A program made the position numbers and the translations under genes. Shown one piece after another: positions 24,481 through 42,087 of a stretch of DNA of 44,833 bases. Source of the stretch: a virus. The notes under the pieces were generated by a model that was not told where the DNA came from, did not search any database, and saw nothing but the letters and a program-made list of their open reading frames with translations. The number at the start of each line of letters is the position of its first letter. Position 1 is the stretch's first letter. The DNA is taken from positions 1-44,833 of IMG/VR virus record IMGVR_UViG_3300022413_000017; one strand, 5' to 3'.

Positions 24481-25704
24481 TCAGCTCGGCAGGAGGTCGT
24501 TGATCCGGCCGTGCACGTTGCGCCGGTCGGTGGTGAGCTCGCAGTAGCTGAACATGGTCGCCTCGTAGGCGTCCTTGTCGGTGATACGGGTGAGCACGGA
24601 GCCGTCCTCGTCCATCCACTCCCAATCAGCCGCCTTGTTCCAGGTGAGGTTGGCGGTGTTGATCAGGAAGGCCGTGTTGCCGGTGCAGTAGCGGTCGGAG
24701 ACCAGTCCGATCTCCCCCTCGCCGCTCGAGATCGGGAGAGCTGAGTAGCCACCCTTGAGCACGAGGTTGTCGACGAACCGCTTCTGCGACTGCAGCGTCG
24801 AGGCGTAGCGCCGACACACAGCGTGCGGCGCAACGGCCAGGTTCGGCACCATGCCCGAGTCGATCGAGATCTCGTCGATGGCCTCGATGAAGAGGTCCTC
24901 CGTCGGCTCCCGGTTCGTGCCCGAGTTGTCATCCACGTACGAGTTCCACAGGTTGACCGTGGCCCCGTTGATTCCGAACAGGGAATCACCAGTGCTGACA
25001 ATCTCCCGAAGGCCGGTGGACTCCACCGTGCGGTCGGCCGTGTCGTCGTACGAGTCGTGGATCCGGATGTAGTCGTTGGCGTCGAGAGCCGACCCAGGCT
25101 GGGGTGAGACGGTGACCGTCTCTGCCGCCCGATCGTAGGCCGTGATCACGGTGCCGTCGGCCTTGGTCTTGGCATCGGTAGCGGGACCGATGTCGACCTC
25201 CATACCTACGACAATGGACAGCCAGTTCTCCCGAGTGGCCCCAGCCACCGGGATCACACCAGCAGTGTCATCACCGCTGGCCTTGATGACGTAGCCCTCC
25301 TTGTCGTTGAAGATCTGCCGGTTCAGCATCTGCTTCAGGTCGATGATGAGCCGTTCCATCTCCTGGGAGGTGGCGTTGACGAAGGCACCAGCGTCAGCCA
25401 CAGCCCGACGCATGGTCTGACCAGTGAAGCCGACTCGGCCGTAGTGGTAGGCCAGATCGCTGGTGAACTTCTCGTAGCCCTGCCGGCCGATGGTGGGCAG
25501 GTCCCCGTACTCGGGAATCGAGGCCGAGCTGGGGTTCCGGCCGGTGTGGGCCGAACCGATGACCTGAGTACCCACGACGTTCTGGGAGCTCTGCTCGAGT
25601 TGGGAGAACGTGGGACTCAGCTTGTCGTTGAGCTGGTACCGCAGACGAGGAAGGTAGAAGTCCTTCATCACGTTTGCGGCAGCAGAGAGATCGAGGTGTG
25701 CCAT
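24481..25704 (-). CDS. major capsid protein
   Basis: The product has 407 residues. It follows scaffold and portal genes and precedes a small head protein. The N-terminus (VMKDFYLPRLRYQLNDKLSPTFSQLEQSSQNVVGTQVIGSAHTGRN) and the later segments EYGDLPTIGRQGYEKFTSDLAYHYGRVGFTGQTMRRA and NATSQEMERLIIDLKQMLNRQIFNDKEG match the usual capsid N-arm and spine-helix pattern of HK97-fold capsids of this type. No protease gene or delta-domain is evident. AAAGGG lies upstream of the ATG. The fold assignment is from pattern and gene order. Confidence 0.88.
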   Translation of the reverse strand: MAHLDLSAAANVMKDFYLPRLRYQLNDKLSPTFSQLEQSSQNVVGTQVIGSAHTGRNPSSASIPEYGDLPTIGRQGYEKFTSDLAYHYGRVGFTGQTMRRAVADAGAFVNATSQEMERLIIDLKQMLNRQIFNDKEGYVIKASGDDTAGVIPVAGATRENWLSIVVGMEVDIGPATDAKTKADGTVITAYDRAAETVTVSPQPGSALDANDYIRIHDSYDDTADRTVESTGLREIVSTGDSLFGINGATVNLWNSYVDDNSGTNREPTEDLFIEAIDEISIDSGMVPNLAVAPHAVCRRYASTLQSQKRFVDNLVLKGGYSALPISSGEGEIGLVSDRYCTGNTAFLINTANLTWNKAADWEWMDEDGSVLTRITDKDAYEATMFSYCELTTDRRNVHGRINDLLPS

Positions 25705-25816
25705 GGGGCAAACCCTTTCGCTTGAGACGTACGGATGTGGTTACCCGACAAGCTCTGCGGGGTCCAGCCCCTGCCACGCCTCGGGGGAGTCCAGCTCCAC
25801 CCCGGGATGCGCTCAG

Positions 25817-25822
25817 ATTATC
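25817..25822 (-). promoter_or_regulatory. possible -10 box (GATAAT) of a capsid-gene promoter
   Basis: Read on the minus strand this is GATAAT, one base from the TATAAT consensus, in an otherwise GC-rich spacer and about 115 nt upstream of the capsid ATG. No good -35 element lies 17 bp away; a hairpin stem occupies that position. The call is weak. Confidence 0.3.
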
Positions 25823-25831
25823 ACGAACAGA

Positions 25832-25875
25832 AGAGCCGGACACCCGAGGACCAACTCGTAGAAGTGTCCGGCTCT
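25832..25875 (-). terminator. strong hairpin between scaffold and capsid genes, with anti-leader loop
   Basis: AGAGCCGGACAC (25832-25843) and GTGTCCGGCTCT (25864-25875) are a perfect 12-bp inverted repeat with a 20-nt loop. Inside the loop, 25845-25848 (CGAG) pairs with 25855-25858 (CTCG) around six bases. Read on the minus strand those six are TTGGTC, and the surrounding decamer GTTGGTCCTC is the exact complement of the GAGGACCAAC leader found before early genes. It lies after the scaffold stop and may end or attenuate that transcript before the capsid gene. Confidence 0.65.
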
Positions 25876-25927
25876 ATCAACGGCCTACGCATCACTGGCC
25901 AATCTTGATTCTATATGCGAACGTGTC

Positions 25928-26452
25928 CTACGTGGTAGAGGCTTGCTGCAGCCCCTCCAGATACTTCAAAGCTGCAACATTCACCGCCTCCTTGTCGTTG
26001 TAGTCCAGCTCGTCGCCCTGAGCCTTGGCGTCCAGGTGAGGACCACCGGTGGTGCCGGCAGCAGCTGTCACCGGAAACTCCGGGGTGGGGGGTGCGGCCT
26101 CGGGGGCAGGCTGTTCACCTTCGACTGGCGGCTCGCCCTCCACCTGGTCCTTCGGCAGCTGGCGATACATCCGATCAGCCAGCTCCAGATTGCCCTTGGC
26201 CATCTCGGCCATGACGAGGAACTCTTCCCGGTCAGGGGTGCCAGGTGAGTACCCGTGCTGATCGAGCCACTCCTCCAGCTGGGCCACACCCTCGGCCTCC
26301 TGTGCCTGCGTCATCTGTTCCCGCTCGGCCTTGAGCTGTTCAACCTCCTGCTGCAGGGACTCCACCATCTGGAGTACCTCCGGGGGCAGTGCAGCTGGCG
26401 CTGAGTCCTGGGTCAACCCGGTGACGGGGAGTGCGCTGTCCTTCTCGGTCAT
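25928..26452 (-). CDS. possible nested short scaffold from internal start (Met85)
   Basis: Codon 85 of the scaffold gene is ATG, preceded on the minus strand by AAGGAAGGAACTGAG, a better ribosome site than that of the full-length start. It would give a 174-residue protein with the second coiled coil and C-terminus but without the N-terminal coil. Nested scaffold genes are known in other phages (lambda C/Nu3). Expression is inferred. Confidence 0.4.
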   Translation of the reverse strand: MTEKDSALPVTGLTQDSAPAALPPEVLQMVESLQQEVEQLKAEREQMTQAQEAEGVAQLEEWLDQHGYSPGTPDREEFLVMAEMAKGNLELADRMYRQLPKDQVEGEPPVEGEQPAPEAAPPTPEFPVTAAAGTTGGPHLDAKAQGDELDYNDKEAVNVAALKYLEGLQQASTT

Positions 26453-26704
26453 CTCAGTTCCTTCCTTGCTGTCCTGGGTTCCCAGTACAGAGTCCGCTAG
26501 TTCACGGAACAGCTCAGCTCCCGCTGAGGGGTTCTCGGTGAAGACGGTAACGAGGTGCAACAACCCTCGCTGCTCGTCCTCTGGCAATCCACTGAACGCA
26601 TCCCGGTAGGTGGCCGCCTCCTGCCTCCGCTTGGCGTTCTCGTCCCGAAGCCGGGAGATCTCAGCCCTCAACTGTTCAGGCGTTGCATTGTCCAGTCCGC
26701 TCAT
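25928..26704 (-). CDS. capsid scaffolding protein
   Basis: The product has 258 residues. It sits between portal and capsid genes, the standard scaffold place. The protein is highly charged and helical: a coiled coil at 10-35 (RAEISRLRDENAKRRQEAATYRD) and another near 105-140 (EVLQMVESLQQEVEQLKAEREQMTQAQEAEGVAQLEEWL). A Pro/Glu-rich linker (VEGEPPVEGEQPAPEAAPPTPEF) and a short conserved-looking C-terminus (DELDYNDKEAVNVAALKYLEGLQ) follow, probably the capsid-binding end. An internal start is likely at residue 85. Confidence 0.82.
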   Translation of the reverse strand: MSGLDNATPEQLRAEISRLRDENAKRRQEAATYRDAFSGLPEDEQRGLLHLVTVFTENPSAGAELFRELADSVLGTQDSKEGTEMTEKDSALPVTGLTQDSAPAALPPEVLQMVESLQQEVEQLKAEREQMTQAQEAEGVAQLEEWLDQHGYSPGTPDREEFLVMAEMAKGNLELADRMYRQLPKDQVEGEPPVEGEQPAPEAAPPTPEFPVTAAAGTTGGPHLDAKAQGDELDYNDKEAVNVAALKYLEGLQQASTT

Positions 26705-26714
26705 GTTCCCTTTC

Positions 26715-28586
26715 TCACAACAGCCCCATCATGGCGTCCACCGCAGCGGCGGGGTCCTGTGGGGCCTCTTCAGGAGGTGGGGCCATCTCCGGAGCCATTG
26801 CCGCCTCGGGCACCGGGATGTCCTCATCGGCCGAAGGCACCGCAGCCAGTGCGGGGTTGGCCTCCACCCGGCCCACCTGCTTGCCCATGGCCTCGTTGGC
26901 CAGAGTCTCATGACTCATGACGTGAGTGTCCACGACCATCTGCTGCTCTGGGTCGAGCATCTCGTACGCCGGGGTGGTTCGGAAGGCGTTGTGCTCGGTG
27001 ATGTGGGCCACGTGATCGTCGAAGGTGGCGGGGAGATCAACAGACCCCTTGGTCATGGCAGCGTTCTCCCTTCGAGCCTTGGCCACGTGGTGGTTCAGAG
27101 CGTTGACCAGGTGGCGTCGGCCCGGCATCTCGATGAAGCGAACGAAGTCCTCCAGCTGGGTGATCAACCCCATCTCCAAGAGCTTGAGACCGAGCTGTTG
27201 CATGGCGGCCCGACTGCGGGGGATGACACTCTCGAGGGGGATACGGGCGTTGTACTGACCGTTGATGTCCCCGCCCTCCCACTCCACAGCCACCGGACCC
27301 TCTCCCGTCTCGATGACCTGGAGCTTCTTGCCCTTGGCAAAGGCCTCCTGCATCTGCAGCACCATGGAGGCCGCACGACCGAACATACCGGCACCGACCT
27401 TCAGGAGACGTCCCTGAGGGGTGCCATCGAGCTCGGCCAGGATGGAGAGCGCAGTACCGCTCTCGAGATTGACCGGAGCCTTGCCTCGACTCACATCGTG
27501 CACGCCCATGATGTCGTCGATGTCGATCTTCAGATCCTCGGGCATGCGCTGCAACCAGGCGGGGAGCTGAGGAGGGTTGAGCCAGGCCGGGGGTGTCAGA
27601 CCATCGGGGTAGGGGTGCATGTAGCCCGGGATGTCGTTCATGGACTGCATGATCCGCACGGCTGAGTGGGGCACCAGCATGCGGGAGACCGATGCGTCCC
27701 GTAGGTGCTCACTCAGGTTGGACTCCGCCAAGTTGAGCTGGACCTGTAGCTGGCGAGCCTGGGAGTAGATCGTCTCTCCCCACCACTGATGGTCCGACAC
27801 GGTCTCAGTCCCCACCACCAGGTTGAGGCGATCGGTGAACGGGTAGGGCCAGGGGATGTCCTGCATCAGCCTGCCACCCACGTCCACACACACCCGGCCC
27901 TCTTCATTCAAGGGGTTGGGCCGCTCGTAGTAGGTGAGCACCAGGGTGAGTGGGTTGAGCTTCTCCACCCCCAGGTGACCTTCGAGCAGCCGCTCGGCCA
28001 AGGGGTTGAGCCCATTCGAGGCATCAGCCTGTGGAGGCTCCGACAGCCCGAACATCGACTGCACCTCCTCGGGGTGGTGCACCTGGGCCTTGATCCACCA
28101 CCGAGCAGTCTCCGGATCCCGACACCCGGGCTCGACCACGGCTTCGATGATGGAGAGCGCCGTCTCGACGGTGTCCAGGGCTTTGTCGTCCCAATCGACG
28201 GCGATGATGCCGGTGCCACCCTTGAGCATTGTGGTGTACAGCACCTCCCGCAGGTGCTCCCAGTTGTGGGCGAAGGCCAGGGCGTAGAGCACTTCCTCAG
28301 CCACATGAGCTGCCTGAGCACTGGCATCGTTGGCCCCGTTGGGGAACACCTCGTACGCCATGTTGCGCTGCATCAGGCCGGAGATCAGAGTCCGGTGATT
28401 GGCCGCCATCCGGTTGTTGACCATGCGCAGACGGTCGTCTACCGGGAGCTCCTCAGGGTTGTCAGCCGAGGGGTTCCACCAGATCCACTGGTAGCCACTG
28501 AGGAACCCAGTGTTCAGCCAGTAGTTCTGGCTGGCGTCTCGGGTGTCCCGGGCGGCCTTGCGGTACAACTCCCGAACGTTATCCAT
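26715..28586 (-). CDS. portal protein
   Basis: The product has 623 residues. The N-terminal FLSGYQWIWWNP...LPVDDRLRMVNNRMAANHRTLISGLMQRNMAYEVFP is the usual portal opening. GTGIIAVDWD follows, and the stem/crown region carries DIDDIMGVHDVSRGKAPVNLESGTALSILAELD, a hallmark of podovirus-type portals. The C-terminus is Pro/Ala/Glu-rich. It is the twelve-subunit ring through which DNA enters and to which the adaptor protein (12604-13236) should bind. The scaffold gene follows 10 nt downstream. Confidence 0.9.
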   Translation of the reverse strand: MDNVRELYRKAARDTRDASQNYWLNTGFLSGYQWIWWNPSADNPEELPVDDRLRMVNNRMAANHRTLISGLMQRNMAYEVFPNGANDASAQAAHVAEEVLYALAFAHNWEHLREVLYTTMLKGGTGIIAVDWDDKALDTVETALSIIEAVVEPGCRDPETARWWIKAQVHHPEEVQSMFGLSEPPQADASNGLNPLAERLLEGHLGVEKLNPLTLVLTYYERPNPLNEEGRVCVDVGGRLMQDIPWPYPFTDRLNLVVGTETVSDHQWWGETIYSQARQLQVQLNLAESNLSEHLRDASVSRMLVPHSAVRIMQSMNDIPGYMHPYPDGLTPPAWLNPPQLPAWLQRMPEDLKIDIDDIMGVHDVSRGKAPVNLESGTALSILAELDGTPQGRLLKVGAGMFGRAASMVLQMQEAFAKGKKLQVIETGEGPVAVEWEGGDINGQYNARIPLESVIPRSRAAMQQLGLKLLEMGLITQLEDFVRFIEMPGRRHLVNALNHHVAKARRENAAMTKGSVDLPATFDDHVAHITEHNAFRTTPAYEMLDPEQQMVVDTHVMSHETLANEAMGKQVGRVEANPALAAVPSADEDIPVPEAAMAPEMAPPPEEAPQDPAAAVDAMMGLL

Positions 28587-28590
28587 GTGT

Positions 28591-28878
28591 CTAGCCTAGT
28601 GGAGACCCTCCGGTGCCTAGGAGGTGTCCACCCCCCAGCCGATCCGGTGGTGGGTAGCTGCTACCAGGGACAACATCGGTCTCGTCGTCGTCATCGAGAC
28701 CGGAGTGCACCATGTCAGCCGCCACCGCAGCGTAGGGGCTGTTCTTCGTGGCCATCAGAGCCGACATCAGGAGCTGGTTCTGGTCGGTCAGCACCCCCAT
28801 GTGGCGGAAGACGTAGCGGGTGGCCAACACCAGCGTGGCCGAGACACCTACGGCGAGGACGATGAGGGCATAGGTCAT
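28591..28878 (-). CDS. small membrane protein
   Basis: The product has 95 residues. An N-terminal hydrophobic helix (YALIVLAVGVSATLVLATRYVF) with almost no leader is followed by a polar region containing DDDDETD and a Gly/Pro-rich end. The ATG overlaps the upstream stop (ATGA). It lies directly before the portal gene; the function is unknown. Confidence 0.6.
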   Translation of the reverse strand: MTYALIVLAVGVSATLVLATRYVFRHMGVLTDQNQLLMSALMATKNSPYAAVAADMVHSGLDDDDETDVVPGSSYPPPDRLGGGHLLGTGGSPLG

Positions 28879-29363
28879 GTCGTCTCCTCCACATCCTCCT
28901 GCAGGTCCCTCAGTACGTCCACCAGAAGTCCGGCCGGGATCTCCCCATCTGGGTGTTTGGGGCCATGTTTGAAGGGGGAGTCCCGGCCGAGTTCTCTGTT
29001 GAGCTCCTCGATCGTCGCCCGATAGCGGCGGGTCTTGCGCCGCTCGGAGTCCAGCTTGGTTGCGATTTCAACTACCACGTCGAGGCGAGAGCGGTTGACC
29101 TGGCCTTCCATCTCCCGCATTCGCTCGAGGTAGCCCTTGGCCTCGTCCTTGGCCTTGTCGAGCTCTTCAGCGGTGGCCATGCCCATCGATGCCGCCATCT
29201 CCCGCACGGCCGTGGGGCAGATGTCGAGATAGCCCCGTTCGGTCTGGATGTCGCCCAGCCGGAAGATGAAGTGCTCGTCGGGATCGAGCTTGCGGTTGTA
29301 GACGAAACAGCGGTGGGGGATCACCGAGCCCTGCTCGAAGTCGTTGCGCTTGTGCCAGGTCAT
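28875..29363 (-). CDS. hypothetical coiled-coil protein
   Basis: The product has 162 residues. The N-terminal 60 residues form a compact beta/mixed region (HRCFVYNRKLDPDEHFIFRLGDIQTERGYLDICPTAVREMAASMGM), and residues 62-125 form a long charged coil (EELDKAKDEAKGYLERMREMEGQVNRSRLDVVVEIATKLDSERRKTRRYRATIEELNREL). It is coupled to the zinc-ribbon gene upstream and to the membrane protein downstream. A structural or assembly role is possible, but the family is not recognised. Confidence 0.65.
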   Translation of the reverse strand: MTWHKRNDFEQGSVIPHRCFVYNRKLDPDEHFIFRLGDIQTERGYLDICPTAVREMAASMGMATAEELDKAKDEAKGYLERMREMEGQVNRSRLDVVVEIATKLDSERRKTRRYRATIEELNRELGRDSPFKHGPKHPDGEIPAGLLVDVLRDLQEDVEETT

Positions 29364-29527
29364 ATCTTCCCTTCACTCCTCAGCCTCTTGGCGGTCCCGA
29401 GATCCCGGAGCGTCCACGTCGGACCATCGCACTCATCACACTTCCACCTGCCAAGCAGCGTGGGGTACAGATCCCCCAAGCACACAGGACACTCGGATCG
29501 TCTCCTCAGCCTGCTCAGCTTGATCAT
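29360..29527 (-). CDS. 55-residue zinc-ribbon protein
   Basis: The product is basic, with two C-x2-C knuckles: ECPVC near residue 15 and KCDEC near residue 33, a classic zinc ribbon. The start overlaps the upstream stop by one base (TGATG), and the stop overlaps the downstream ATG (ATGA). This tight coupling supports a real gene. It could bind nucleic acid or protein; the function is unknown. Confidence 0.65.
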   Translation of the reverse strand: MIKLSRLRRRSECPVCLGDLYPTLLGRWKCDECDGPTWTLRDLGTAKRLRSEGKI

Positions 29528-29799
29528 CACCGTGTGATCGGCTGGGTGAGGGTGTCGAGCATGGCTCGGGTGACCATGTCTCGGCGACCGTTCTCCGCCG
29601 TCTTGACCGATAGCTCCCAGTACCCCTCACTGTGCACCGGATCCACTCGGAGCTGCACCGGCCTGGACCAGCCCTGTGCGCTCAGTTCATGCACCAACTG
29701 GTGTGACATCTTCACCATCATCAGGTCCCGAGCGAACATCTCGCATGCACACCCCCGGCAGTGTTGGATGTTCGGATCGAGCTCACCTTCAGCAACCAT
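29527..29799 (-). CDS. small hypothetical protein with CxxC
   Basis: The product has 90 residues. Near the N-terminus is HCRGCAC, a possible half zinc site with H13, followed by ARDLMMVKMSHQLVHELSAQGWSRPVQLRVDP and a beta-like segment. The family is not recognised. It is the first gene after the 330-nt non-coding interval downstream of terL, and TAGAAT upstream on the minus strand (29805-29812 area) might serve as its own -10 box. Confidence 0.6.
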   Translation of the reverse strand: MVAEGELDPNIQHCRGCACEMFARDLMMVKMSHQLVHELSAQGWSRPVQLRVDPVHSEGYWELSVKTAENGRRDMVTRAMLDTLTQPITR

Positions 29800-29813
29800 G
29801 GCCCAATTCTAAC

Positions 29814-29842
29814 TTGTCCGGGCGGACATGTTCCACTATCAT
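29814..29842 (+). promoter_or_regulatory. sigma70-like promoter with embedded palindrome, driving the candidate ncRNA
   Basis: TTGTCC (29814-29819) and TATCAT (29837-29842) are separated by exactly 17 bp and match the sigma70 consensus at 4/6 and 5/6 positions. Overlapping the -35 is the palindrome TGTCCG-GG-CGGACA (29815-29828), placed as an operator would be. The promoter points right, against the surrounding minus-strand genes, into a non-coding interval. Confidence 0.6.
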
Positions 29843-29848
29843 CTCTCT

Positions 29849-30125
29849 CATGGAGCTGCGACGGTGGCTCCAGGGAATGGCTGAATAACCGCTACAGGGA
29901 GGCTGGGCGGTAAGGCGACATGAGGACCAACGTCAGCGGCACCTGCGCCAAGCGGTCGGGTGGACGAGGACCATCGGTCCGGGTAGCACCGGATGGAGGT
30001 CAGCGCAGCTCAGTGCGCTCATAGGCACCGGGGATGGCTTGGTATGTCTACTCTCCCCCTCGGTTGCAGGACGACAATCCTGCTTCCCGCCCCACAACCC
30101 CTGGCTCCGGTCGGGGGTTGTGGTG
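29849..30125 (+). ncRNA. candidate structured non-coding RNA
   Basis: A 277-nt interval follows the promoter and contains no credible ORF. Possible stems: 29851-29856/29867-29872 (TGGAGC/GCTCCA), 29888-29892/29907-29911 (ACCGC/GCGGT), 29915-29919/29932-29937 with one bulged A, 29962-29965/29977-29980 or alternatively 29968-29972/29976-29980, 30002-30007/30014-30019 (AGCGCA/TGCGCT), 30066-30071/30078-30083 (GCAGGA/TCCTGC), and a closing stem 30029-30034/30084-30089. The 3' end is a strong hairpin. Loops near 29921 and 29966 carry GAGGACCA, the leader motif of early genes. It is not a tRNA (no T-loop TTCRA) and matches no RNA family I know. Confidence 0.5.
30092..30123 (+). terminator. 10-bp stem at the end of the ncRNA interval
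   Basis: CCACAACCCC (30092-30101) pairs perfectly with GGGGTTGTGG (30114-30123) around 12 nt; TGCTTCT follows on the plus strand. It lies 6 nt beyond the terL stop, so it could also end or slow the minus-strand terL transcript. Confidence 0.6.
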
Positions 30126-30129
30126 CTTC

Positions 30130-31986
30130 TCAGCGCCGTTGGGCACCTACGAGGCGGAGCATCTGGTCATAGGGGTGCTCCTTCCCGCCCTGCCGGCGCA
30201 GCTGGCGCATGTTGCGCTGCACGTGGCTCTCCTTGGGCAGGTCCTCGGGCTCCTCGCCCGGTGGCGTTTCACCTGGGCGCAGGTAGGTGCGGCTGTGGAT
30301 CCAGGCGTAACCCCCGTTGTCGACCTGGTCGTCGTGAGTGCCCCGAGGGAAGTTGGTGTGCTCGTTCTCCCAGTTCACCCCCCACGGCACGTACAGCGGG
30401 TCGGGGAACCAGACGTGGCCGGTGTTGGTCGCTACCGAGTACGGGGTGTTGCGGGTGATCTTGTCGAACTCGGCCTTGATGGGGATGATCACCCAGTCGG
30501 GTTTGGAGGTGCGGATGTCGTTGATCAGGTTCGTGCCGTAGGTCTTGGCCTCGATCCCAATCACCAGGGGCTCGGCCTCCGGTCGCTGAGCTTCAAGGAA
30601 CAGCTCCAACTTTGGAAGGTGATCGTCTGTACTTAAACGATCCTTGAACCTATCCACGAGTATCAGCTGGTTCTTCCAGGGGTCGAAGGCCCAGTTGGTG
30701 AACACCGTCCAGTCGGCCTGGGTCTTCTTCGATGCGGCCAGGTCCACAATCATGAAGTGCACCGTGGCCGGATCGGTGGCCAGCACCGACTGCTCCCCTG
30801 GTCCTCGGTAGGTCCTGGTCTGGTAGTCGTAGCGGTAGTGGTGGAAGGTCGATGGGCTGCCCTCGTGCTCCAGGGTCTTGCGGAACATGTTGCCCTGGGA
30901 GTGGATGGGGGACCCCTGGTACACACAGCTGAACCACACCGGATCGTTGTTCAGGCGCTGCTCGAGTGTGTCCTTCGACATCATCTGGGGGCACAGCGAT
31001 TCGCCCTCCTGGCGCCCCAGAGGGTCGCTGCCACCGGGCTCCGCCAAGGCAGGCAGACGCAGCACAGCCCATCCCGGCTTGGGGGTCTCACCATCCTCTT
31101 CCAGGGCGAAGGCCCCGGCCAGGTCGTCCTCGTGCCAGCGAGTCAGCATCATCACCTGCACCGGAGGCGGCAGGTTCTTGATGTTGGTCTCCCGGGACTC
31201 GAACACCGAGGTGTACCAGTTCTTCTTGGCTGTTCGATAGGCCGGGGACAGGGCCTCCTCGGAGTCCTTGAACGGATCGTCGATGATGCCGAGCACGAAT
31301 CCGGTACCCGTAGTGGCGCCGGCCAGGCCCCGGTAGTTGATCTCGCCCACGTCCTTGCCCGACCGGAAGCTGATGTTGGCGTTGGTGGCGCTGAGCGAGG
31401 TGAGCGGCTCGCCATCGGCAGCGAGCGGCATGTCCTTGGCCAGGTCGCTCTCGAGGAAGTCCTTGTGGGCTGCCCCCCACTTCTCGGCGAAGTCACCGGA
31501 GTAGGTGCTGATGAGGACCGGAGCTCGGGGGTAGCGAGTGAGGAACCACCGGGGCGTCCACTCCGTGACCTCGGTCGACTTGCCGTGCCGGGGCGGGCTG
31601 ACAAGTAGCAGCTTGCGCACCACGGTGTCGGCCTCGTCGGCCTCAGGCCCGGTGCCGGGGCGGGTGAGCTGCATCTCCGCCGCCCAGAACGCCTTGTCAG
31701 TGGTGGCCGCTTCTGACCCCTGGCCCAGCAGCTTCCAGGGGCCACGACCTTCGGTGGCACGGATCCACACATCAGGAGGTGGTCCGGGCCCGTTGGGGTA
31801 CATCTGCAGGTTGCACAGACTGACGATGTAATGGTCGAACAGACGTACGTGCGGGTAGTCGTGCACCCGATCATCAACTGACATCGCCAGGCACAGAGGG
31901 CTGGCCGACTTGGCGGCCTCGGCCATGTCGGGCTCGAGCGTGCCGGCCCGGATGGCGTCGTACAGCGGATCGAGCGGGGTTATCAC
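30130..31986 (-). CDS. terL: terminase large subunit
   Basis: The product is 618 residues from a GTG overlapping the upstream stop. The ATPase has Walker A P131-P-R-H-G-K136-S, preceded by KLLLVS, and Walker B VLGIID236-D237-P. A coupling motif lies near VMMLTRWHEDD. The C-terminal RNase H-like nuclease shows acids at D415 (MIVDLAASKK), E479 (IGIEAKTYG) and D552/D553 (GTHDDQVDNGG). All expected catalytic residues are present. It packages DNA into the prohead through the portal. The downstream gap holding a candidate ncRNA is unusual for this otherwise tight operon. Confidence 0.95.
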   Translation of the reverse strand: MITPLDPLYDAIRAGTLEPDMAEAAKSASPLCLAMSVDDRVHDYPHVRLFDHYIVSLCNLQMYPNGPGPPPDVWIRATEGRGPWKLLGQGSEAATTDKAFWAAEMQLTRPGTGPEADEADTVVRKLLLVSPPRHGKSTEVTEWTPRWFLTRYPRAPVLISTYSGDFAEKWGAAHKDFLESDLAKDMPLAADGEPLTSLSATNANISFRSGKDVGEINYRGLAGATTGTGFVLGIIDDPFKDSEEALSPAYRTAKKNWYTSVFESRETNIKNLPPPVQVMMLTRWHEDDLAGAFALEEDGETPKPGWAVLRLPALAEPGGSDPLGRQEGESLCPQMMSKDTLEQRLNNDPVWFSCVYQGSPIHSQGNMFRKTLEHEGSPSTFHHYRYDYQTRTYRGPGEQSVLATDPATVHFMIVDLAASKKTQADWTVFTNWAFDPWKNQLILVDRFKDRLSTDDHLPKLELFLEAQRPEAEPLVIGIEAKTYGTNLINDIRTSKPDWVIIPIKAEFDKITRNTPYSVATNTGHVWFPDPLYVPWGVNWENEHTNFPRGTHDDQVDNGGYAWIHSRTYLRPGETPPGEEPEDLPKESHVQRNMRQLRRQGGKEHPYDQMLRLVGAQRR

Positions 31987-32426
31987 TCCAGGTCCTGGTT
32001 CTCGGCCCGGGTCTGCAACCTGATCAAGGTGAACTCGTTGTCCACCACACCCTGCATGTAGGCCGACCTCTCCTCATCGGTGAAGTGGAGGTGGGTGCCC
32101 ATGGGCTCGCCAACGATCCAGGCGACGTCCTCCTTCTCCTTGCAGCACCCACGGGGACCAGCGGGCAGGGGCTGGAAGTACACCACCTGGCCATGGGCCC
32201 AGTCCTCTTCGGCGTAGTGCAGTGTCGGCCCATCGGGGTCCTTGGAGTCCCGCACCACCACGGTCCCGTCGCTGGGGTGGGCGGTGGCCTCGACGCAAGA
32301 GTTCGTGCTGCACGAGGCGGTCGACTTGCGCCACTGGGCGGCAACGCACTGCCCCCCAGCGGAGTAGGAGCTCGTGAGCCATCGTTGGTTGGTTGGTCGG
32401 CGTTGGTCGGTTGGTCGGCGTTCCAT
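31983..32426 (-). CDS. DUF397-domain protein (actinobacterial regulator family)
   Basis: The product has 147 residues. Residues 32-67 (WRKSTASCSTNSCVEA....TVVVRDSKDPDGP) match the DUF397 (PF04149) signature 'W-R-K-S-S-x-S .. C-V-E-V-A .. V-A-V-R-D-S-K-D-P-D-G-P'. A partial second copy precedes it (W16-LTSSYSAGGQCVAA). The usual domain end ('L-x-F-T .. W .. F-x-x-G-V-x-x-x-E-F') appears twice too: LHYAEEDW directly after, and LHFTDEERSAYMQGVVDNEF (113-132) after a ~40-residue insertion with GCCKEK. DUF397 proteins usually partner XRE-type regulators in Streptomyces; no such regulator is encoded here. The N-terminus comes from an 18-bp DNA repeat. The gene is coupled to terL. Confidence 0.75.
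   Translation of the reverse strand: MERRPTDQRRPTNQRWLTSSYSAGGQCVAAQWRKSTASCSTNSCVEATAHPSDGTVVVRDSKDPDGPTLHYAEEDWAHGQVVYFQPLPAGPRGCCKEKEDVAWIVGEPMGTHLHFTDEERSAYMQGVVDNEFTLIRLQTRAENQDLE
32384..32425. repeat. short tandem repeat at the start of the DUF397 gene
   Basis: GGTTGGTCGGCGTT occurs twice with an 18-bp period within a run of TTGGT units. In the minus-strand reading it encodes RRPTDQR/RRPTNQR. This looks like a recent slippage expansion of the 5' end. Confidence 0.55.
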
Positions 32427-32428
32427 AC

Positions 32429-32650
32429 CTACATCCTGTCAGGTCTGTCGGGGGGTGCGGTCGGCGCTGGTCCCACTGTGACCTCGTGGTACGTGGCCCA
32501 GGTGACCGGGAGCCCATCCCGCATCCGAGGGCCGTCGAAGTAGACCACGCTGTCGTCATGCCGGACCGGCGCTCGGGCCACGCCGAGGTAGTCGCCGGTC
32601 CGGTCGTTGTATAGGTGTGAGCCCTTCTTGATGTCACGTTTCCTGGCCAT
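32429..32650 (-). CDS. small hypothetical protein
   Basis: The product is 73 residues from the ATG preceded by GGAGGACC. It starts basic (MARKRDIKKGSHLYNDRTGDYLGVA) and continues with beta-like segments (SVVYFDGPRMRDGLPVTWATYHEVTVGP) and a Pro-rich end. The pattern suggests a small KOW/SH3-like barrel, but I do not recognise it. It lies just upstream of the DUF397 gene. Confidence 0.55.
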   Translation of the reverse strand: MARKRDIKKGSHLYNDRTGDYLGVARAPVRHDDSVVYFDGPRMRDGLPVTWATYHEVTVGPAPTAPPDRPDRM

Positions 32651-32677
32651 GGTCCTCCAGTGCTGCATACGGTGCGC

Positions 32678-32881
32678 TCACCACTCAACATCCCCTGCTA
32701 TCGATGTGCCATACTCCGAACCCTCAGATTCGGCCCACTCGAATGCTTCCCGCACCGTCGGGAACCGGCGATCAGTTACCGTCGGCACGGGTTCTGAGTT
32801 GTCGGAGGCGAAGCCCATGAGGGCGCAGTAGCCGATGCCTGATGGGTGGTTGCACACCACGTAGTAGTTGTCTTCGCTCAC
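32678..32881 (-). CDS. small hypothetical protein
   Basis: The product is 67 residues from a GTG overlapping the upstream stop (GTGA). The longer open frame is not used because it would overlap the coupled gene. The sequence YYVVCNHPSGIGYCALMGFASDNSEPVPTVTDRRFPTVREAFEWAESEGSEYG is a beta-beta-alpha arrangement with an acidic C-terminal helix. The function is unknown. Confidence 0.6.
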   Translation of the reverse strand: MSEDNYYVVCNHPSGIGYCALMGFASDNSEPVPTVTDRRFPTVREAFEWAESEGSEYGTSIAGDVEW

Positions 32882-33210
32882 GGTGCGTTGGTCTTCAATA
32901 GTCGTTCGATGACATCGGCAGCTCTCGCCATGGTCGGCAGAGCAAGCTCTCTCATCACGTCGGCAGCGGCAGCGTCCTTGGCCCTCAGGTGTTCGGGTGG
33001 TGTCGGGAACACTGATTCGGGGTAGGCCCGTTCGTAGTTGCGGAGCAGCTCGACCATGCGCTCGGCCTGGTCGAGCAGTCGGCTTCGGGCCCTCACTGTT
33101 TCGAGGGCTTCGGCCCACACTTGGGCTGGTGGTTTCGGGATGGCGATGTCGGGGAGGCCCAGGGCATCCCGCAGCTCTCGCACCATCTCTCGGGGGTCCG
33201 GGTCAGTCAT
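32878..33210 (-). CDS. helical hypothetical protein near terL
   Basis: The product is 110 residues from the ATG overlapping the stop of the 29-residue ORF upstream. The frame stays open to 33342 through a poly-Lys reading of the GAA repeat, which is probably not used. The chain is mostly helix (REMVRELRDALGLPDIAIPK, VWAEALETVRARSRLLDQAERMVELLRNYERAYPESVFP, AAAADVMRELALPTMARAADVIERLLK). A small terminase role is conceivable from position but no HTH is seen. Confidence 0.6.
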   Translation of the reverse strand: MTDPDPREMVRELRDALGLPDIAIPKPPAQVWAEALETVRARSRLLDQAERMVELLRNYERAYPESVFPTPPEHLRAKDAAAADVMRELALPTMARAADVIERLLKTNAP

Positions 33211-33296
33211 GGGTTCCACGGTGGGGGTGGTGACGGCACGGGCGGAGCGGGCGGGTCTGATGGGGGCATGGGCTGCCCGGGGCCTTTGCTGCTCAT
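33207..33296 (-). CDS. 29-residue proline-rich peptide ORF
   Basis: Its ATG overlaps the upstream stop (ATGA) and its TGA overlaps the downstream ATG, so a ribosome could pass through all three genes. The sequence is MSSKGPGQPMPPSDPPAPPV plus a Pro-rich end, with 14 prolines in all. It may be only a coupling device or a proline-rich pause element. Confidence 0.35.
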   Translation of the reverse strand: MSSKGPGQPMPPSDPPAPPVPSPPPPWNP

Positions 33297-33616
33297 CGCT
33301 GCTCTTCTTCTTCTTCTTCTTCTTCTGGGGGTTCGCTGGCAAGGATCAGGTCCTCGAGCTCGCCCAGGTGCTGGTACGTCTGGCGCAGTTTGGTCCTGGC
33401 GTAGGCCCACTCCGAGCCCGGGGCACTGATCCGCACCCGTTGGCCCTTGGGGTCGACGTCGTTGGCCTCGCAGTAGCGCAGGTAGTTGGCGTCAACCCTG
33501 AGGATCTCATCGAGCAACGTCACCTGCAGGGAACGAAGCTCCCTCAGTAGATCGCTCTTCTTGGGCGATGTGAGCAGTTGCAGGGGTGGCAGTGTGGGTG
33601 AACGTTTGTTCGTCAC
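33293..33616 (-). CDS. hypothetical helical protein with poly-Glu tail
   Basis: The product is 107 residues from a GTG with AAGGAACGTCA upstream. The body is helical (KKSDLLRELRSLQVTLLDEILRVDANYLRYCEANDVDPKGQRVRISAPGSEWAYARTKLRQTYQHLGELEDLILA). The end is eight glutamates encoded by a GAA/GAG triplet run (CTT/TTC on the plus strand, 33300-33326). It is the first gene of the minus-strand operon, just inside the divergent intergenic region. An HTH-lacking small terminase or a regulator are guesses only. Confidence 0.6.
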   Translation of the reverse strand: MTNKRSPTLPPLQLLTSPKKSDLLRELRSLQVTLLDEILRVDANYLRYCEANDVDPKGQRVRISAPGSEWAYARTKLRQTYQHLGELEDLILASEPPEEEEEEEEQR

Positions 33617-33768
33617 TGACGTTCCTTCCGCTTAGCCCGGGTAAAGATACCTACGGGATGAGAGTCATTGTAGCGGGAGGGGTGGTGGGAGTGGTGTCTG
33701 TCGCCACAGCGATTTGTCGGGGGTGGGCTAGGTAGTTGTGCCTAGTCCGGTTGGAAGGGTGTTTGGTC

Positions 33769-33796
33769 GGGGTGGGTGATTGGGGTGTGGGAGGGG
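33769..33796 (+). other. G-quadruplex motif
   Basis: Five G-runs occur in 28 bp: GGGG (33769), GGG (33774), GGGG (33782), GGG (33789) and GGGG (33793), with loops of 1-5 nt. This satisfies the standard G4 pattern on the plus strand. Confidence 0.6.
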
Positions 33797-33849
33797 TTAG
33801 GTCTGCGGTGGGGGCCAAACAACCATATAGACGGTGGGGGAGGGCGCAA

Positions 33850-33865
33850 GGGGGGTGTGCCCCCC
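33850..33865. repeat. 6-bp G/C hairpin
   Basis: GGGGGG (33850-33855) and CCCCCC (33860-33865) flank TGTG. It could act as a terminator for leftward or rightward readthrough, or as part of an origin structure. Confidence 0.45.
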
Positions 33866-33898
33866 CACCCCTAGTCACCTGCCTAGGTTTCAACTTTC

Positions 33899-33917
33899 TT
33901 GAGTCCGATCGACTCAA
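33899..33917. promoter_or_regulatory. operator-like palindrome TTGAGTC-n5-GACTCAA
   Basis: Perfect 7-bp arms flank CGATC in the middle of the divergent region. The symmetry and size fit a dimeric regulator or initiator binding site. Confidence 0.45.
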
Positions 33918-33969
33918 CTCGCCGCCGGTCGCCCCCCTCCGCCGATCGCCGCCGGTCCCCCTGGCCGAT

Positions 33970-33990
33970 CGCCGCTCGCCGCTCGCCGCT
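33970..33990. repeat. tandem CGCCGCT x 3
   Basis: There are three perfect consecutive copies of a 7-mer, in a wider run of related GCCGATCGCCGCCGG sequence. Short iterons of this kind occur in replication origins, but simple GC-rich slippage is an alternative. Confidence 0.45.
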
Positions 33991-34128
33991 CACCCCCCGC
34001 CGGCGGCCCCCGACTGTAACCGTTCTGTAACCGAACCGTCGCCACCGTAACAATTGGGCGTGAGACAATGAGAGCGTAGCTCGCTACGGGCTGCACGGTT
34101 CGGACCAACGGACCGCACTTCACACACG

Positions 34129-34140
34129 AGGACCAACACC
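34129..34140 (+). promoter_or_regulatory. conserved leader AGGACCAACACC of the first early gene
   Basis: AGGA lies 8 nt before the ATG at 34141. The 12-mer is identical to the end of the leaders at 6522-6533 and 37132-37143. Confidence 0.7.
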
Positions 34141-34425
34141 ATGCGCATCGCACCACCCCACCATTCCCCCCTCCTGGCTCCCACACCGCCGGCCAACACA
34201 CTCACGCACCCCACGTATGCCATCTTCCCCACGCCGTGGTACGCCAACGGCGCACAGGCCAGGACTCACCTCTACTTCGCCGACGACCAGACGACCGCCT
34301 GTGGCCACGCCAGAGGCAACGCCAGGATTCTCGACCACCACCACACAACAGGCACCGGCGAGCCCATCGACCAGGCACACGCACCCCGAGTCGTGACCTG
34401 CAGCCTCTGCCGGCGGTGGCTGTGA
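34141..34425 (+). CDS. hypothetical early protein with Cys/His cluster
   Basis: The product has 94 residues and is the first gene of the rightward operon. The N-terminal third is Pro-rich (PPHHSPLLAPTPPANTLTHPTY). The rest holds TTACGHARGN, a His run (DHHHTTG) and a terminal VTCSLCRRWL, so a zinc site C/H..C-x2-C is likely. The family is not recognised. Its stop is shared with the next gene (TGATG). Confidence 0.6.
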   Translation: MRIAPPHHSPLLAPTPPANTLTHPTYAIFPTPWYANGAQARTHLYFADDQTTACGHARGNARILDHHHTTGTGEPIDQAHAPRVVTCSLCRRWL

Positions 34426-34595
34426 TGTACAGCATCCGGGTCACACGCCACTCAGACGGCGCCGAGTGGCAGCTAGGCCACGACTACAACTTCGACACCT
34501 TCGACGGCGCCTTCGGCGAAGTCGACTACCTAACGGCCTCCTACGGCCATCGATGCAGCTTCACTGTCGTGCCGAGCCAGGAGCCGAAGCGATGA
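34425..34595 (+). CDS. small hypothetical protein
   Basis: The product is 56 residues (MYSIRVTRHSDGAEWQLGHD...), apparently a small beta-alpha-beta protein (SIRVTRHSDG..FDGAFGEVDYLTASYGHRCSFTVV). The start is ATG 34425, overlapping the previous stop by one base; GTG 34422 is an alternative. The stop overlaps the next ATG. The function is unknown. Confidence 0.5.
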   Translation: MYSIRVTRHSDGAEWQLGHDYNFDTFDGAFGEVDYLTASYGHRCSFTVVPSQEPKR

Positions 34596-34765
34596 CCAGC
34601 CGCTACCAGGCCGCCCCAGTGCACCTTCGGCACCGGCCAGCTGCCAACCCCGAACTACTGACCATCGTGACCGTCACCCCCCGGCGAGCCAAGGCACTGC
34701 TCAACGCTCACCCCGACCGCTACTCCCCCCTGTCCACACGCAAGCTTAGGAGCACCACACCATGA
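34592..34765 (+). CDS. small basic hypothetical protein
   Basis: The product has 57 residues with many Arg, Pro and His residues. ATGA overlaps occur at both ends. The segment LTIVTVTPRRAKALLNAHPDRYSPLSTRKLR is a beta strand followed by a helix. It has no known family. Confidence 0.5.
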   Translation: MTSRYQAAPVHLRHRPAANPELLTIVTVTPRRAKALLNAHPDRYSPLSTRKLRSTTP

Positions 34766-35022
34766 CCACCGCTCACACACACTACGGCCGCACCATGGCC
34801 GACATCCCCGACGACCCAACGGGCTACCTACGAAACCACTTCGACCACTGGGCCCGGCGAACCACCGCCGAACCGAGGCCCATCCCCGACACGTGGGATG
34901 AGCTCGACGTCGAGACCTTCTGGCACTGGTGCGCCGAACGATTCGACCGCACCCCCATCAACACAAGCTGGCCAGAACTACTGCAGACCTACCAACAGCA
35001 AACGGAGGACCACACACCATGA
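34762..35022 (+). CDS. small acidic hypothetical protein
   Basis: The product has 86 residues, Trp-rich and acidic (GYLRNHFDHWARRTTAEPRPIPDTWDELDVETFWHWCAERFDRTPINTSWPELLQTYQQQ). It looks like a small helical protein. It is coupled upstream and downstream by ATGA overlaps, and a GGAGGACC leader for the following gene lies inside its end. Confidence 0.55.
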   Translation: MTTAHTHYGRTMADIPDDPTGYLRNHFDHWARRTTAEPRPIPDTWDELDVETFWHWCAERFDRTPINTSWPELLQTYQQQTEDHTP

Positions 35023-35483
35023 CCAGCAACAGCGGCAACGTGACCAACATCCGAGAGCCAGGGCGACGCAAGGCCAAGGCCGAGCGGGCTCGCCGCTCAG
35101 CCGACGACCGAGCTCACACCTTCACCACACAGGAGGATCAGCTCCGGTTCACTCGCCATGCCGACGGCACCGTGTCCCTGCGCCTGCCCTACCGGCGGGC
35201 CAAGGACCTGTTGCAGAGCGCTGAACACCATGCTCTCTGTTCGCAGATTCCGCACAACACCATGTCACTCGACGACCGGCAGAGGTTCAACGAACAGATC
35301 CCCCTGCGCCAGGCGGAAGAGTACAGCTGGGCCGCTGCACTGGCCAAGCTCATCGACACGGTGAACGGGCGCAACACTGGCGACCTGTTCGGCGATGCCG
35401 ATCACCGAGCATGGACCATCGATCGATGGAACCGCATCCGATCCGAGCACCCCGACAACCGATACGGAGGCTACTCCCTGTGA
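35019..35483 (+). CDS. hypothetical protein
   Basis: The product is 154 residues from the ATG behind GGAGGACCACACACC. The N-terminal 35 residues are strongly basic (REPGRRKAKAERARRSADDR), suggesting nucleic-acid binding or a flexible tail. The remainder (LRFTRHADGTVSLRLPYRRAKDLLQSAEHHALC..YSWAAALAKLIDTVNGRN) is a mixed alpha/beta body. It has no recognised family. Confidence 0.6.
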   Translation: MTSNSGNVTNIREPGRRKAKAERARRSADDRAHTFTTQEDQLRFTRHADGTVSLRLPYRRAKDLLQSAEHHALCSQIPHNTMSLDDRQRFNEQIPLRQAEEYSWAAALAKLIDTVNGRNTGDLFGDADHRAWTIDRWNRIRSEHPDNRYGGYSL

Positions 35484-35629
35484 CCACCACCGACCAGCAA
35501 CACTGCGTCCGATGCGGCAAGGTCCTCGACCCTGCCAAGGACCCTGGCGCACCCCTACTCAAGCGATGCGCCGACTGTTTCACCTCCCGGACCAACCCTT
35601 GGGATGACCTACCTAGGTGGGACTGGTGA
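35480..35629 (+). CDS. 49-residue zinc-ribbon protein
   Basis: It starts at the GTG overlapping the previous stop. C-x2-C pairs at HCVRCGK and RCADC, 17 residues apart, form a zinc ribbon. The tail (TNPWDDLPRWDW) is Trp-rich. Small zinc ribbons of this type are common in actinophage early regions and may bind DNA, RNA polymerase or other proteins; the target is unknown. Confidence 0.6.
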   Translation: MTTTDQQHCVRCGKVLDPAKDPGAPLLKRCADCFTSRTNPWDDLPRWDW

Positions 35630-35814
35630 CCAACCGACCTTGCCCCGACGACAAGGCCCCGCCACCCCGCACCGTCACGGTGACCGTGCGATGGGACCGC
35701 CGACACGAGGAAGGCCACGATCTCACGCTGGCCGATGCCATCGCCATGGTGTACCAACACATGCGGCACCCCGACTACGACCACCTGACCATAGAGATGG
35801 GAAACCAGGACTGA
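35626..35814 (+). CDS. small hypothetical protein
   Basis: The product is 62 residues from the GTG overlapping the previous stop. The layout is a beta strand (RTVTVTVRWD), a helix (LTLADAIAMVYQHMRH) and a beta strand (HLTIEM), consistent with a compact fold. The function is unknown. Confidence 0.5.
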   Translation: MTNRPCPDDKAPPPRTVTVTVRWDRRHEEGHDLTLADAIAMVYQHMRHPDYDHLTIEMGNQD

Positions 35815-35900
35815 ACTGATCAGCGTGGCCGGCCGGACCCCACCCCGGAGCCGACCGGTCACGGTGCGCAGATAGCCCACCATCAAGAGAGGACCAAACC

Positions 35901-37055
35901 ATGACCACTGAAGCCAACACCTACCGCAACGTCACCCTTGACCAGCTCGCCGACCAGCTCAGCTACCGGGCCGAGCGATCGAAGGACTACGTCGTGCCGG
36001 CGTCCAAGCTGCACGCCAACGGTGGCCGGATCGAGATCGCCGGTCACGCTGAGGTCAACCCCTCACCCACCATGCTTGGCACCATGGGCCAGCGGCTCAG
36101 CATCCCGACCAAGTACATCAAGACGGTGCACGCCCGAGCCACCGAGACCCCCGAGGACAACGACGACCGGGGCCGACAGGTCGCCGCTCACTACCGGCGA
36201 GCCTTCGATGAGATGGTGAATGCCAGCCTGGCCGACACCGACCGCAAGTTCATGGTGCGCACGTATGAGAGCGGCAAGGGCACCGACTACGGGCGGGCCA
36301 TGCTGTCGGACAAGTTCAAGACCATCGACAACTGGGACGTGATCGCTGCCATGATCTCCGGCGTCGAGCAGGCCGGCGTCGATGTCGAGGTCGAGGGCTG
36401 CGACCTGGACGACCGCAACATGCGACTCCGCCTCTCGTGCCCGCAGGTCTACGTCATGGCGGAGGAGTTCCTCAAGGGGTACCGCAATCCCTTTGACCCC
36501 AGTCACACGGGCTACAACCAGGGTGAGGAGCCGATCATCTTCGCCGGGTTCGAGATGCGCAACTCTGAGACTGGGTTCGGTGCCTACTCCACGCAGCCCC
36601 GGTTCAAGATCAAGATCTGCCAGAACGGATTGGTGATCACCGAGGACGTGATGCGAGAGGTGCACGTCGGCACCCGACAGGCGGAGGGCCAGGTCACCTG
36701 GTCCGACGACACTCGCAAGACCGTCGTTGAACTGATCGGCAAGCAGACACGAGACGCCGTCACCCACTTCCTCAATGTTGAGTATCTGCAGGCATCGGTC
36801 GACAAGCTCACCGCCCTGGCGGGAGGCCAGGTCGATGACGTCGAGGGCACGATCCAGGTCGTGGCCAAGCAGTACTCGTTCACCGATGAGGAGCGGGCCG
36901 GCATCTTGAATCGATTCATCAAGGGAGGCCAGCTCACCTCCGGAGGTGTGGCCAACGCCATCACGGCTCACGCCCAGGACGTGGAGGACCCCGAGCGAGC
37001 TGCCGAGCTGGAGGCGGTGGCCGTGCCGGCCATGCGCACCGCACTGGCGGCCTGA
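35901..37055 (+). CDS. DUF932-like phage/plasmid protein
   Basis: The product is 384 residues behind AGAGGACCAAACC. KFMVRTYESGKGTDYGRAMLSDKFKTIDNWDVI matches the DUF932 pattern 'R-A-x-L-S-D-x-Y/F-x-x-I-D-N', and the segments before (LSIPTKYIKT) and after (PIIFAGFEMRNSETGFGAYSTQPRFKIKICQNGLVI) also fit. DUF932 proteins are widespread on phages and plasmids; their activity is not established. A strong hairpin after the stop may separate this gene from the next. Confidence 0.75.
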   Translation: MTTEANTYRNVTLDQLADQLSYRAERSKDYVVPASKLHANGGRIEIAGHAEVNPSPTMLGTMGQRLSIPTKYIKTVHARATETPEDNDDRGRQVAAHYRRAFDEMVNASLADTDRKFMVRTYESGKGTDYGRAMLSDKFKTIDNWDVIAAMISGVEQAGVDVEVEGCDLDDRNMRLRLSCPQVYVMAEEFLKGYRNPFDPSHTGYNQGEEPIIFAGFEMRNSETGFGAYSTQPRFKIKICQNGLVITEDVMREVHVGTRQAEGQVTWSDDTRKTVVELIGKQTRDAVTHFLNVEYLQASVDKLTALAGGQVDDVEGTIQVVAKQYSFTDEERAGILNRFIKGGQLTSGGVANAITAHAQDVEDPERAAELEAVAVPAMRTALAA

Positions 37056-37062
37056 TCAGCGG

Positions 37063-37094
37063 GGCCTGCCTCAGTACAGCGGCTGGGGCAGGCC
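37063..37094 (+). terminator. hairpin after the DUF932-like gene
   Basis: GGCCTGCC (37063-37070) pairs perfectly with GGCAGGCC (37087-37094); inside, CAG/CTG adds three more pairs after one mismatch. No U-tract follows, so it may be an attenuator or an mRNA-stabilising end. Confidence 0.6.
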
Positions 37095-37143
37095 ACGGTG
37101 GGCAGAGCGCACACCAACAACCATGAGAAAGAGGACCAACACC

Positions 37144-37467
37144 ATGCTTCAGGACCTGAGCTCCCGAATCATCAACGCCGTCATGACCGGCGACATCACC
37201 GCCGAACAGGGTGAGACCCTGCTCGATGTGCACATGCGAGTGACGCAGAGCTCCACGTTCACGTGCCCCATCACCGGAGAGTTGCTCGACTCCCGCACCT
37301 CCCACCTGCTGGAGGTGCGACCCTCCCCCGAGCACGACTCGGTGATGGTGGTCGTGTCACCTCGAGCCGATGACGACACCATCAACGCCCGGCTGCACGA
37401 GAACCTTGGCGAGGACGTGACCTTCACCCGCACCGACCCCGCCCCCATCTGGAAGGAGATCAACTAA
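37144..37467 (+). CDS. hypothetical early protein
   Basis: The product is 107 residues from the ATG behind GAGGACCAACACC; the frame is open upstream only as overlap. The N-terminal helix (SSRIINAVMTGDITAEQGETLLDVHMRV) is followed by FTCPITGELLDSRTSHLLEV, a beta hairpin with one Cys, and an acidic region. The pattern 'C-P-x-T-G-x-x-L-D-x-R-x-x' is typical of small phage proteins but I cannot name the family. Confidence 0.6.
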   Translation: MLQDLSSRIINAVMTGDITAEQGETLLDVHMRVTQSSTFTCPITGELLDSRTSHLLEVRPSPEHDSVMVVVSPRADDDTINARLHENLGEDVTFTRTDPAPIWKEIN

Positions 37468-37658
37468 TGAGCCGACCGACCATCGAAGAGGGTGGCGGTA
37501 TCACTCACACCCTCTTCAACTTCTACTGCCCCGACTGTTGTGTGATGGGGCCCACCTACCGGGTCAAGGACAACGCAATCGGAGACCTGGAAGCACACGA
37601 GTGCCCACCCCGACAGTGGCGGTGGGATGAGACCAAGCAGAGAGCGGACCAAGCATGA
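37467..37658 (+). CDS. small zinc-binding protein
   Basis: The product has 63 residues. Metal ligands are likely Y-C-P-D-C-C near residue 20 and H44-E-C near residue 45. The start overlaps the previous stop by one base (TAATG) and the end is coupled to the next gene. The function is unknown. Confidence 0.55.
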   Translation: MSRPTIEEGGGITHTLFNFYCPDCCVMGPTYRVKDNAIGDLEAHECPPRQWRWDETKQRADQA

Positions 37659-37870
37659 CTAACTACCTGACCAAACGACAGATGTCCACGTACAAGGGCC
37701 GACTGACCCGGGCCCAGAAGAAGGGACCGCAAGCCGTGCACGACACGGTGGTGCAGACCTTCAGGGAGTGGGACCAGGGGGACTACGCCTGGCCCGACGC
37801 CTGGCACACCTGGAACATCGCCTACCAAGACGCCTGCCTCCAGCTGGGCATCCAGCCCACCTGCTACTAG
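37655..37870 (+). CDS. small hypothetical protein
   Basis: The product has 71 residues and is helical and basic at the start (LTKRQMSTYKGRLTRAQKKGPQAVHDTVVQTFREWDQG), then Trp-rich (AWPDAWHTWNIAYQDACLQLG). The ATG overlaps the previous stop. A degenerate leader, AGCGGACCAAGC, precedes it. Confidence 0.55.
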   Translation: MTNYLTKRQMSTYKGRLTRAQKKGPQAVHDTVVQTFREWDQGDYAWPDAWHTWNIAYQDACLQLGIQPTCY

Positions 37871-37902
37871 CCCGCAACCACCAACAAGAAAGAGGACCAA
37901 CA

Positions 37903-39124: not shown

Positions 39125-39138
39125 GCACCCACCTGCAT

Positions 39139-40564: not shown

Positions 40565-40576
40565 AACACATGTACG

Positions 40577-40590
40577 AGAGGACCAAGTCA
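40577..40590 (+). promoter_or_regulatory. conserved leader AGAGGACCAAGTCA
   Basis: AGGA lies 8 nt before ATG 40591. It marks the restart of coding after the palindrome region; the upstream in-frame codon at 40570 is not needed. Confidence 0.65.
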
Positions 40591-40857: not shown

Positions 40858-40861
40858 TGCT

Positions 40862-41305: not shown

Positions 41306-41306
41306 G

Positions 41307-42072: not shown

Positions 42073-42087
42073 TCCTGGGAGGCACGG

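Follow-up and report, generated by a model that had tools for sequence, protein, structure and literature searches.

An orphan DUF397 (BldB-family) protein with repeated half-domains is coupled to the terminase large subunit gene in an IMG/VR virus record

The window analyzed here, an IMG/VR virus record taken at its full length of 44,833 bases, encodes an orphan, virus-borne DUF397 protein that is tightly coupled to the terminase large subunit gene (terL). The gene occupies positions 31983..32426 of the minus strand and encodes a BldB-family protein of 147 aa. A sequence-only reading had assigned this ORF to DUF397, and the profile search bears the assignment out: PF04149 matches it in two stretches with E=7.3e-18 and 64.9 bits, above the curated cut-off of 24, and the CVE and RDSKDPDGP motifs are both present. 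The PHROGs DUF397 family, phrog_10815, also matches the ORF (E=6e-14). The phage setting and the coupling to terL, proposed in the same reading, were confirmed as well, since the adjoining gene (30130..31986, minus strand) is a terminase large subunit (phrog_38, E=2.8e-56; PF03237, E=2.5e-5). The DUF397 gene lies directly upstream of it on the same strand, and the terL start is inside the DUF397 stop, in a 4-nt overlap, GTGA. On the other side, a 79-aa ORF without a PHROG match (32429..32668, minus strand) ends 2 nt ahead of the DUF397 start. Third-position GC is 0.86 in the DUF397 gene, 0.85 in terL and 0.86 in the capsid gene, and the DUF397 protein is probably made together with the packaging and head genes. 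The XRE-DUF5753 partner typical of the family was searched for in the whole record, and both PF19054 (DUF5753) and PF13560 (HTH_31) are absent; the place directly upstream, where the XRE gene of an XRE-DUF397 pair would lie, is taken by the 79-aa ORF. All significant Pfam and PHROGs matches of the DUF397 ORF are DUF397-type and none is of a TerS family, and the PADLOC anti-phage defence models gave no match to it at E<=1.

The plus strand of the record carries genes for a DNA polymerase, helicase, primase, exonuclease, Sak4-like annealing protein and amidase; the minus strand encodes terminase, portal and capsid. The portal protein (26715..28586, minus strand; phrog_156, E=2.2e-19) and the major capsid protein (24481..25704, minus strand; phrog_14242, E=5.8e-65) are located downstream of the DUF397 gene. 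Relatives of the capsid protein, about 30% identical to it, were found only in Arthrobacter, Microbacterium and Cellulosimicrobium phages and in two uncultured phages. These relatives support an actinobacterial host independently of DUF397 and point to hosts of the Micrococcales type.

To describe the architecture of the protein, we used a translated search of the record with PF04149, together with a DUF397 model built in this analysis, for which the tail and the front repeat were each scored against 2000 shuffles. The protein consists of one nearly complete domain flanked by two further half-domains, a front half and a degenerate back half. The nearly complete domain (WRKS...CVE...RDSKDPDGP...) covers residues 30-77 (32196..32339, minus strand; profile positions 1-48, E=7.5e-16). 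It is preceded by an extra front half with strands 1-2, WLTSSYSAGGQCVAA, at about residues 16-29 (32340..32384, minus strand; profile positions 2-19, E=0.008 for the record), and followed by a second back half with strand 3, strand 4 and helix, VAWIVGEPMGTHLHFTDEERSAYMQGVVDNEF, at about residues 103-132 (32028..32120, minus strand; columns 31-55 of our model). A basic N-terminal leader, RPTDQRRPTNQR, is encoded by an 18-bp tandem repeat of 2.2 copies identified by Tandem Repeats Finder (32383..32422, minus strand). The tail past residue 77 scores 14.6 bits, which none of the 2000 shuffles reaches (best shuffle, 5.2), and the front repeat scores 5.5 bits, equalled in 2 of 2000 shuffles; the earlier observation that the start and the end of the domain each appear twice is thus upheld. 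The second back half aligns with the second halves of four other DUF397 proteins (L006, L054, L057 and L085). A 47-row alignment shows no variation at the Cys of CVE or in the RDSKDP loop; the search peptide had partly selected for the loop, but not for the Cys.

Structure prediction had been suggested as a check on the sequence-only reading. The AlphaFold model of the protein has a mean pLDDT of 69.9, with the front repeat at low confidence. The main domain is modelled with strands at 45-49, 56-60 and 68-71 and a helix at 73-78 (block pLDDT about 77-88), and the second back half with strands at 103-106 and 112-115 and a helix at 117-128 (pLDDT 74-83 over residues 111-140). The strand-strand-helix unit is therefore drawn twice (56-60/68-71/73-78 and 103-106/112-115/117-128), and what had been read as an insertion of about 40 residues in an interrupted domain is a linker plus a second half-domain, that is, a half-domain duplication of a kind general in DUF397. 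Foldseek found no significant match for the model (best E 1.3), and a sequence search for solved structures with DUF397 found none.

Half-repeats are a trait of the DUF397 family. Three genomes (Streptomyces, Micromonospora and Saccharopolyspora) supplied a sample of 59 chromosomal copies, picked regardless of repeats; six of them have the front repeat, as do 4 of the 15 S. coelicolor members (PMC10364602 Table 2). The front repeat was considered as a mark of phage orphans, being present in 11/29 viral orphans, 1/15 viral paired copies and 6/59 chromosomal copies (Fisher p=0.035 and 0.003), and was rejected: the association is weak, as it is post hoc, counts some contigs more than once and is set against 4/15 in S. 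coelicolor alone. Since XRE-paired chromosomal copies have front repeats too, these are not specific to orphans. In six chromosomal loci with several DUF397 genes behind one XRE gene (L063, L064, L070, L094, L116 and L123, a query-biased sample), the front half-repeat is in a later gene and not in the first. The back repeat is rarer than the front one, and was seen in this record, in the viral contig L006 and in the cellular loci L054, L057 (Kineosporia) and L085 (Actinacidiphila). In these four, as in the protein studied here, a second strand-strand-helix comes after a nearly complete domain. L006 and L057 carry orphans, as this record does, and L054 and L085 are XRE-paired. All four differ from our protein in lacking the extra front half, and none was seen adjoining terL. 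Among viral contigs, a search with L057 returned no further back-repeat relatives, and a search with L006 returned L006 itself and one remote match, L135. At L054:19-2072, the back-repeat DUF397 and its XRE gene lie close to genes that, by eye, resemble an ATP-grasp/methyltransferase (graspetide-type) cluster, a neighbourhood that agrees with a report of DUF397-DUF5753 co-occurrence (PMC13097080).

The sequence-only reading had also treated phage DUF397 as little known. This holds in part: DUF397 is already known from phages, being annotated in isolates and collected in phrog_10815, and the orphan form is the less familiar one. A tblastn search of isolate phages with the whole 147-aa protein and a megablast search with positions 25001-44833 both returned nothing; a consensus DUF397 query was required, and it matched fourteen records, with carriers such as the Streptomyces phages Picard, Samy, Success, Austintatious and Darolandstone and the Saccharomonospora phage PIS 136. 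All six isolate-phage loci that we opened have an XRE/HTH gene directly upstream of DUF397. These isolate DUF397s (phrog_10815) are phage-borne like the one studied here, but they are single-domain, XRE/HTH-paired and mostly located in integrase, repressor or accessory regions. Pairing is likewise usual in chromosomes, where an XRE-DUF5753 gene lies directly upstream of 53 of the 59 copies in the unbiased sample and DUF397 genes sometimes follow in series behind one XRE gene. The protein shares with the BldB/DUF397 proteins of Streptomyces (PF04149) the same domain and the KSS, CVE and RDSKDP motifs, whereas those proteins are paired with WhiJ-type XRE-DUF5753 proteins and ours is viral, lacks an XRE gene in its record, has a second, degenerate back half and is coupled to terL. 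A DUF397 attributed to a sea-ice virus paper was discarded, because the domain there is actually DUF3971.

A search of IMG/VR revealed 34 other contigs with DUF397. In about ten of them DUF397 is paired with XRE-DUF5753 or fused to it, and the remaining ~24, together with this record, have no DUF5753 beside DUF397. Orphans adjoining terL were found in this record (phrog_38) and in three others, which belong with another terL family: L003 and L024 (phrog_9, same strand, DUF397 directly upstream) and L001 (phrog_9, divergent). By a rough hand estimate, 0.5 to 1 contig would be expected by chance, against the 3 observed besides this record; we therefore speak of a recurrence and not of a proven enrichment, and terL adjacency as a strong rule was dropped, as it is not clearly above chance. 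Most viral DUF397s do not adjoin terL. In L024, a separate small helical-looking ORF without family match lies just upstream of DUF397, the position that a small terminase gene usually takes. In L001 (5995-6675), three DUF397 genes stand in series next to the divergent terL; the same viral contig (record G001) has two further DUF397 copies at 6586 and 8183. Other orphans (L005, L014, L044 and L045, with DUF397 at about 6000) lie within or next to tRNA-gene clusters with 6 to 35 members, and such clusters were seen at none of the other viral DUF397 loci checked, and others again follow endolysin or head genes. The terL relatives among viral contigs have only 34% and 27% identity, and DUF397 is absent from both loci. 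On a poorly resolved tree, viral DUF397 copies do not form one clade, and viral orphans require 17 changes against 26.5 with shuffled labels (0/500 shuffles as low), whereas viral XRE-paired copies are scattered as by chance. The clustering of the orphans beyond shuffled labels suggests lineages maintained in viruses.

Regarding function, we propose that the protein may act as a dominant or decoy BldB-like protein, an analogy drawn from BldB two-hybrid data and a phage WhiB precedent, to which we give about even weight for and against. Every step past an orphan DUF397 coupled to terL is one that we infer. The viral DUF397 would work through protein contacts, as chromosomal BldB does: it would hetero-oligomerize with host DUF397s or occupy their XRE-DUF5753 (WhiJ-type) partners, its extra half-domains would add binding surface, and as a dominant or decoy subunit it would keep a stress, developmental or antibiotic programme of the host repressed in late infection. 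When S. venezuelae loses BldB, iosA expression that depends on WhiJ9 is released, and BldB binds most of its paralogues at about positive-control strength in the bacterial two-hybrid assay (PMC10294661). There are also 129 WhiJ-BldB fusions (PMC10294661), and one viral contig, L025, carries a natural XRE-DUF5753-DUF397 fusion. These BldB contacts, together with the lack of clear DUF397 toxicity described below, make it most plausible that the viral protein would join host DUF397s on XRE-DUF5753 proteins or displace them there. The precedent comes from mycobacteriophage TM4, whose WhiB acts on host whiB2 as a dominant-negative regulator (PMC8612146). This WhiB resembles the viral DUF397 in that both are phage versions of small developmental regulators of actinobacteria, but it belongs to an unrelated family (an iron-sulphur protein), and its function was experimentally tested, whereas the role of DUF397 is argued by analogy. 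The development of Streptomyces keeps phage spread in check, with repression of developmental genes early in infection (PMC10117723), so that interference by a viral DUF397 could pay. The orphan status and the published BldB biology fit the decoy reading, as they do the sequence-only proposal that the protein may neutralize or hijack an XRE partner of the host. Against it, the position in the head and packaging block suggests late expression, a poor fit with an early takeover of a host programme, and Micrococcineae lack the best-conserved pair, SCO4441/4442 (PMC10364602), while the capsid relatives point to Micrococcales-type hosts.

Among the alternatives, the strongest, although we consider it rather unlikely, is that the gene is passenger cargo of host origin, acquired at an insertion-tolerant spot (by terL, in tRNA arrays or near lysis genes) and doing little or nothing for the phage. 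The varied sites of the orphans (beside terL, within arrays that reach 35 tRNAs, behind endolysin or head genes), a terL adjacency not clearly above chance and the 17 changes that separate viral copies into more than one clade would all be expected of such cargo. The intact reading frame with phage-like codon use, the invariant Cys of CVE and the clustering of viral orphans on the tree, which no shuffle of 500 equals, argue for a maintained gene instead. More doubtful still is that the gene is half of the phage's own XRE-DUF397 control cassette that lost its XRE gene, or that it now tunes an unrecognized regulator of the same phage, such as one for late-gene or lysis timing. In isolate phages the pair is intact and often lies close to the integrase or repressor region, and several chromosomal DUF397s can follow one another behind a single XRE gene; in this record, however, HTH_31 and DUF5753 are missing and the gene sits in the terL-portal-capsid block and not in a repressor region.

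We regard two further possibilities as very improbable. DUF397 was predicted to be a toxin from gene neighbourhoods in 2009 (PMC2701414), a prediction restated in PMC7159879, and the protein could on that basis be a toxin, acting alone or as one half of a type II toxin-antitoxin system; yet overexpression of 14 S. coelicolor DUF397 proteins found none clearly toxic (PMC10364602), and the record has neither an XRE antitoxin nor a PADLOC match. Equally improbable is a packaging accessory or small-terminase-like factor, a role suggested by the overlap with the terL start and by the DUF397 genes of L003 and L024, likewise directly upstream of terL. The sequence belongs to a cellular regulator family, the phages that carry it have unrelated terminases, most viral DUF397s are away from terL, and L024 has its own candidate small terminase in the small ORF upstream of DUF397.

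A broader form of the decoy reading is that orphan, repeat-extended DUF397s might be recurrent actinophage effectors that lack the XRE gene, lie by terL or in tRNA arrays and disable host XRE-DUF5753/DUF397 switches through mixed assembly. We consider this unlikely. If it were true, these switches would sense or limit phage infection. Actinobacterial XRE-DUF397 pairs are strongly multiplied, with a median of 19 BldB paralogues per bldB-containing genome (PMC10294661), and viruses that repeatedly carry the DUF397 half alone offer a natural probe of whether the switches guard against infection. The binding partner of a phage DUF397 would also give a handle on the control of antibiotics and development.

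We also modelled the partner domain, using the natural fusion at L025:1888-2937 (AlphaFold mean pLDDT 84.9). In this model, DUF5753 groups with phospholipase D (PLD)-like folds, with matches to SauUSI (Z 10.9 by VIA, rmsd 3.2 over 142 residues), R.NgoAVII (Z 10.4, rmsd 3.4 over 144 residues) and TrmBL2 (Z 9.5, rmsd 3.2 over 122 residues). Because the HxKx4D catalytic motif is absent from all rows of the XRE-protein alignment (0/53), DUF5753 may serve as a sensor domain built on an inactive PLD fold.

Finally, other features were noted elsewhere in the record. A 316-aa ORF at the record start (15-965, plus strand) is built of GIA-ETDTALAMT unit repeats, and near the opposite end (44689-44816) a 66-bp tandem repeat has similar coding content. 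The structural region contains an 1831-aa ORF without PHROG match (18635-24130, plus strand), and a small-gene region encodes a DUF7178 protein (38337-38924, plus strand; PF23802, E=8.7e-26).
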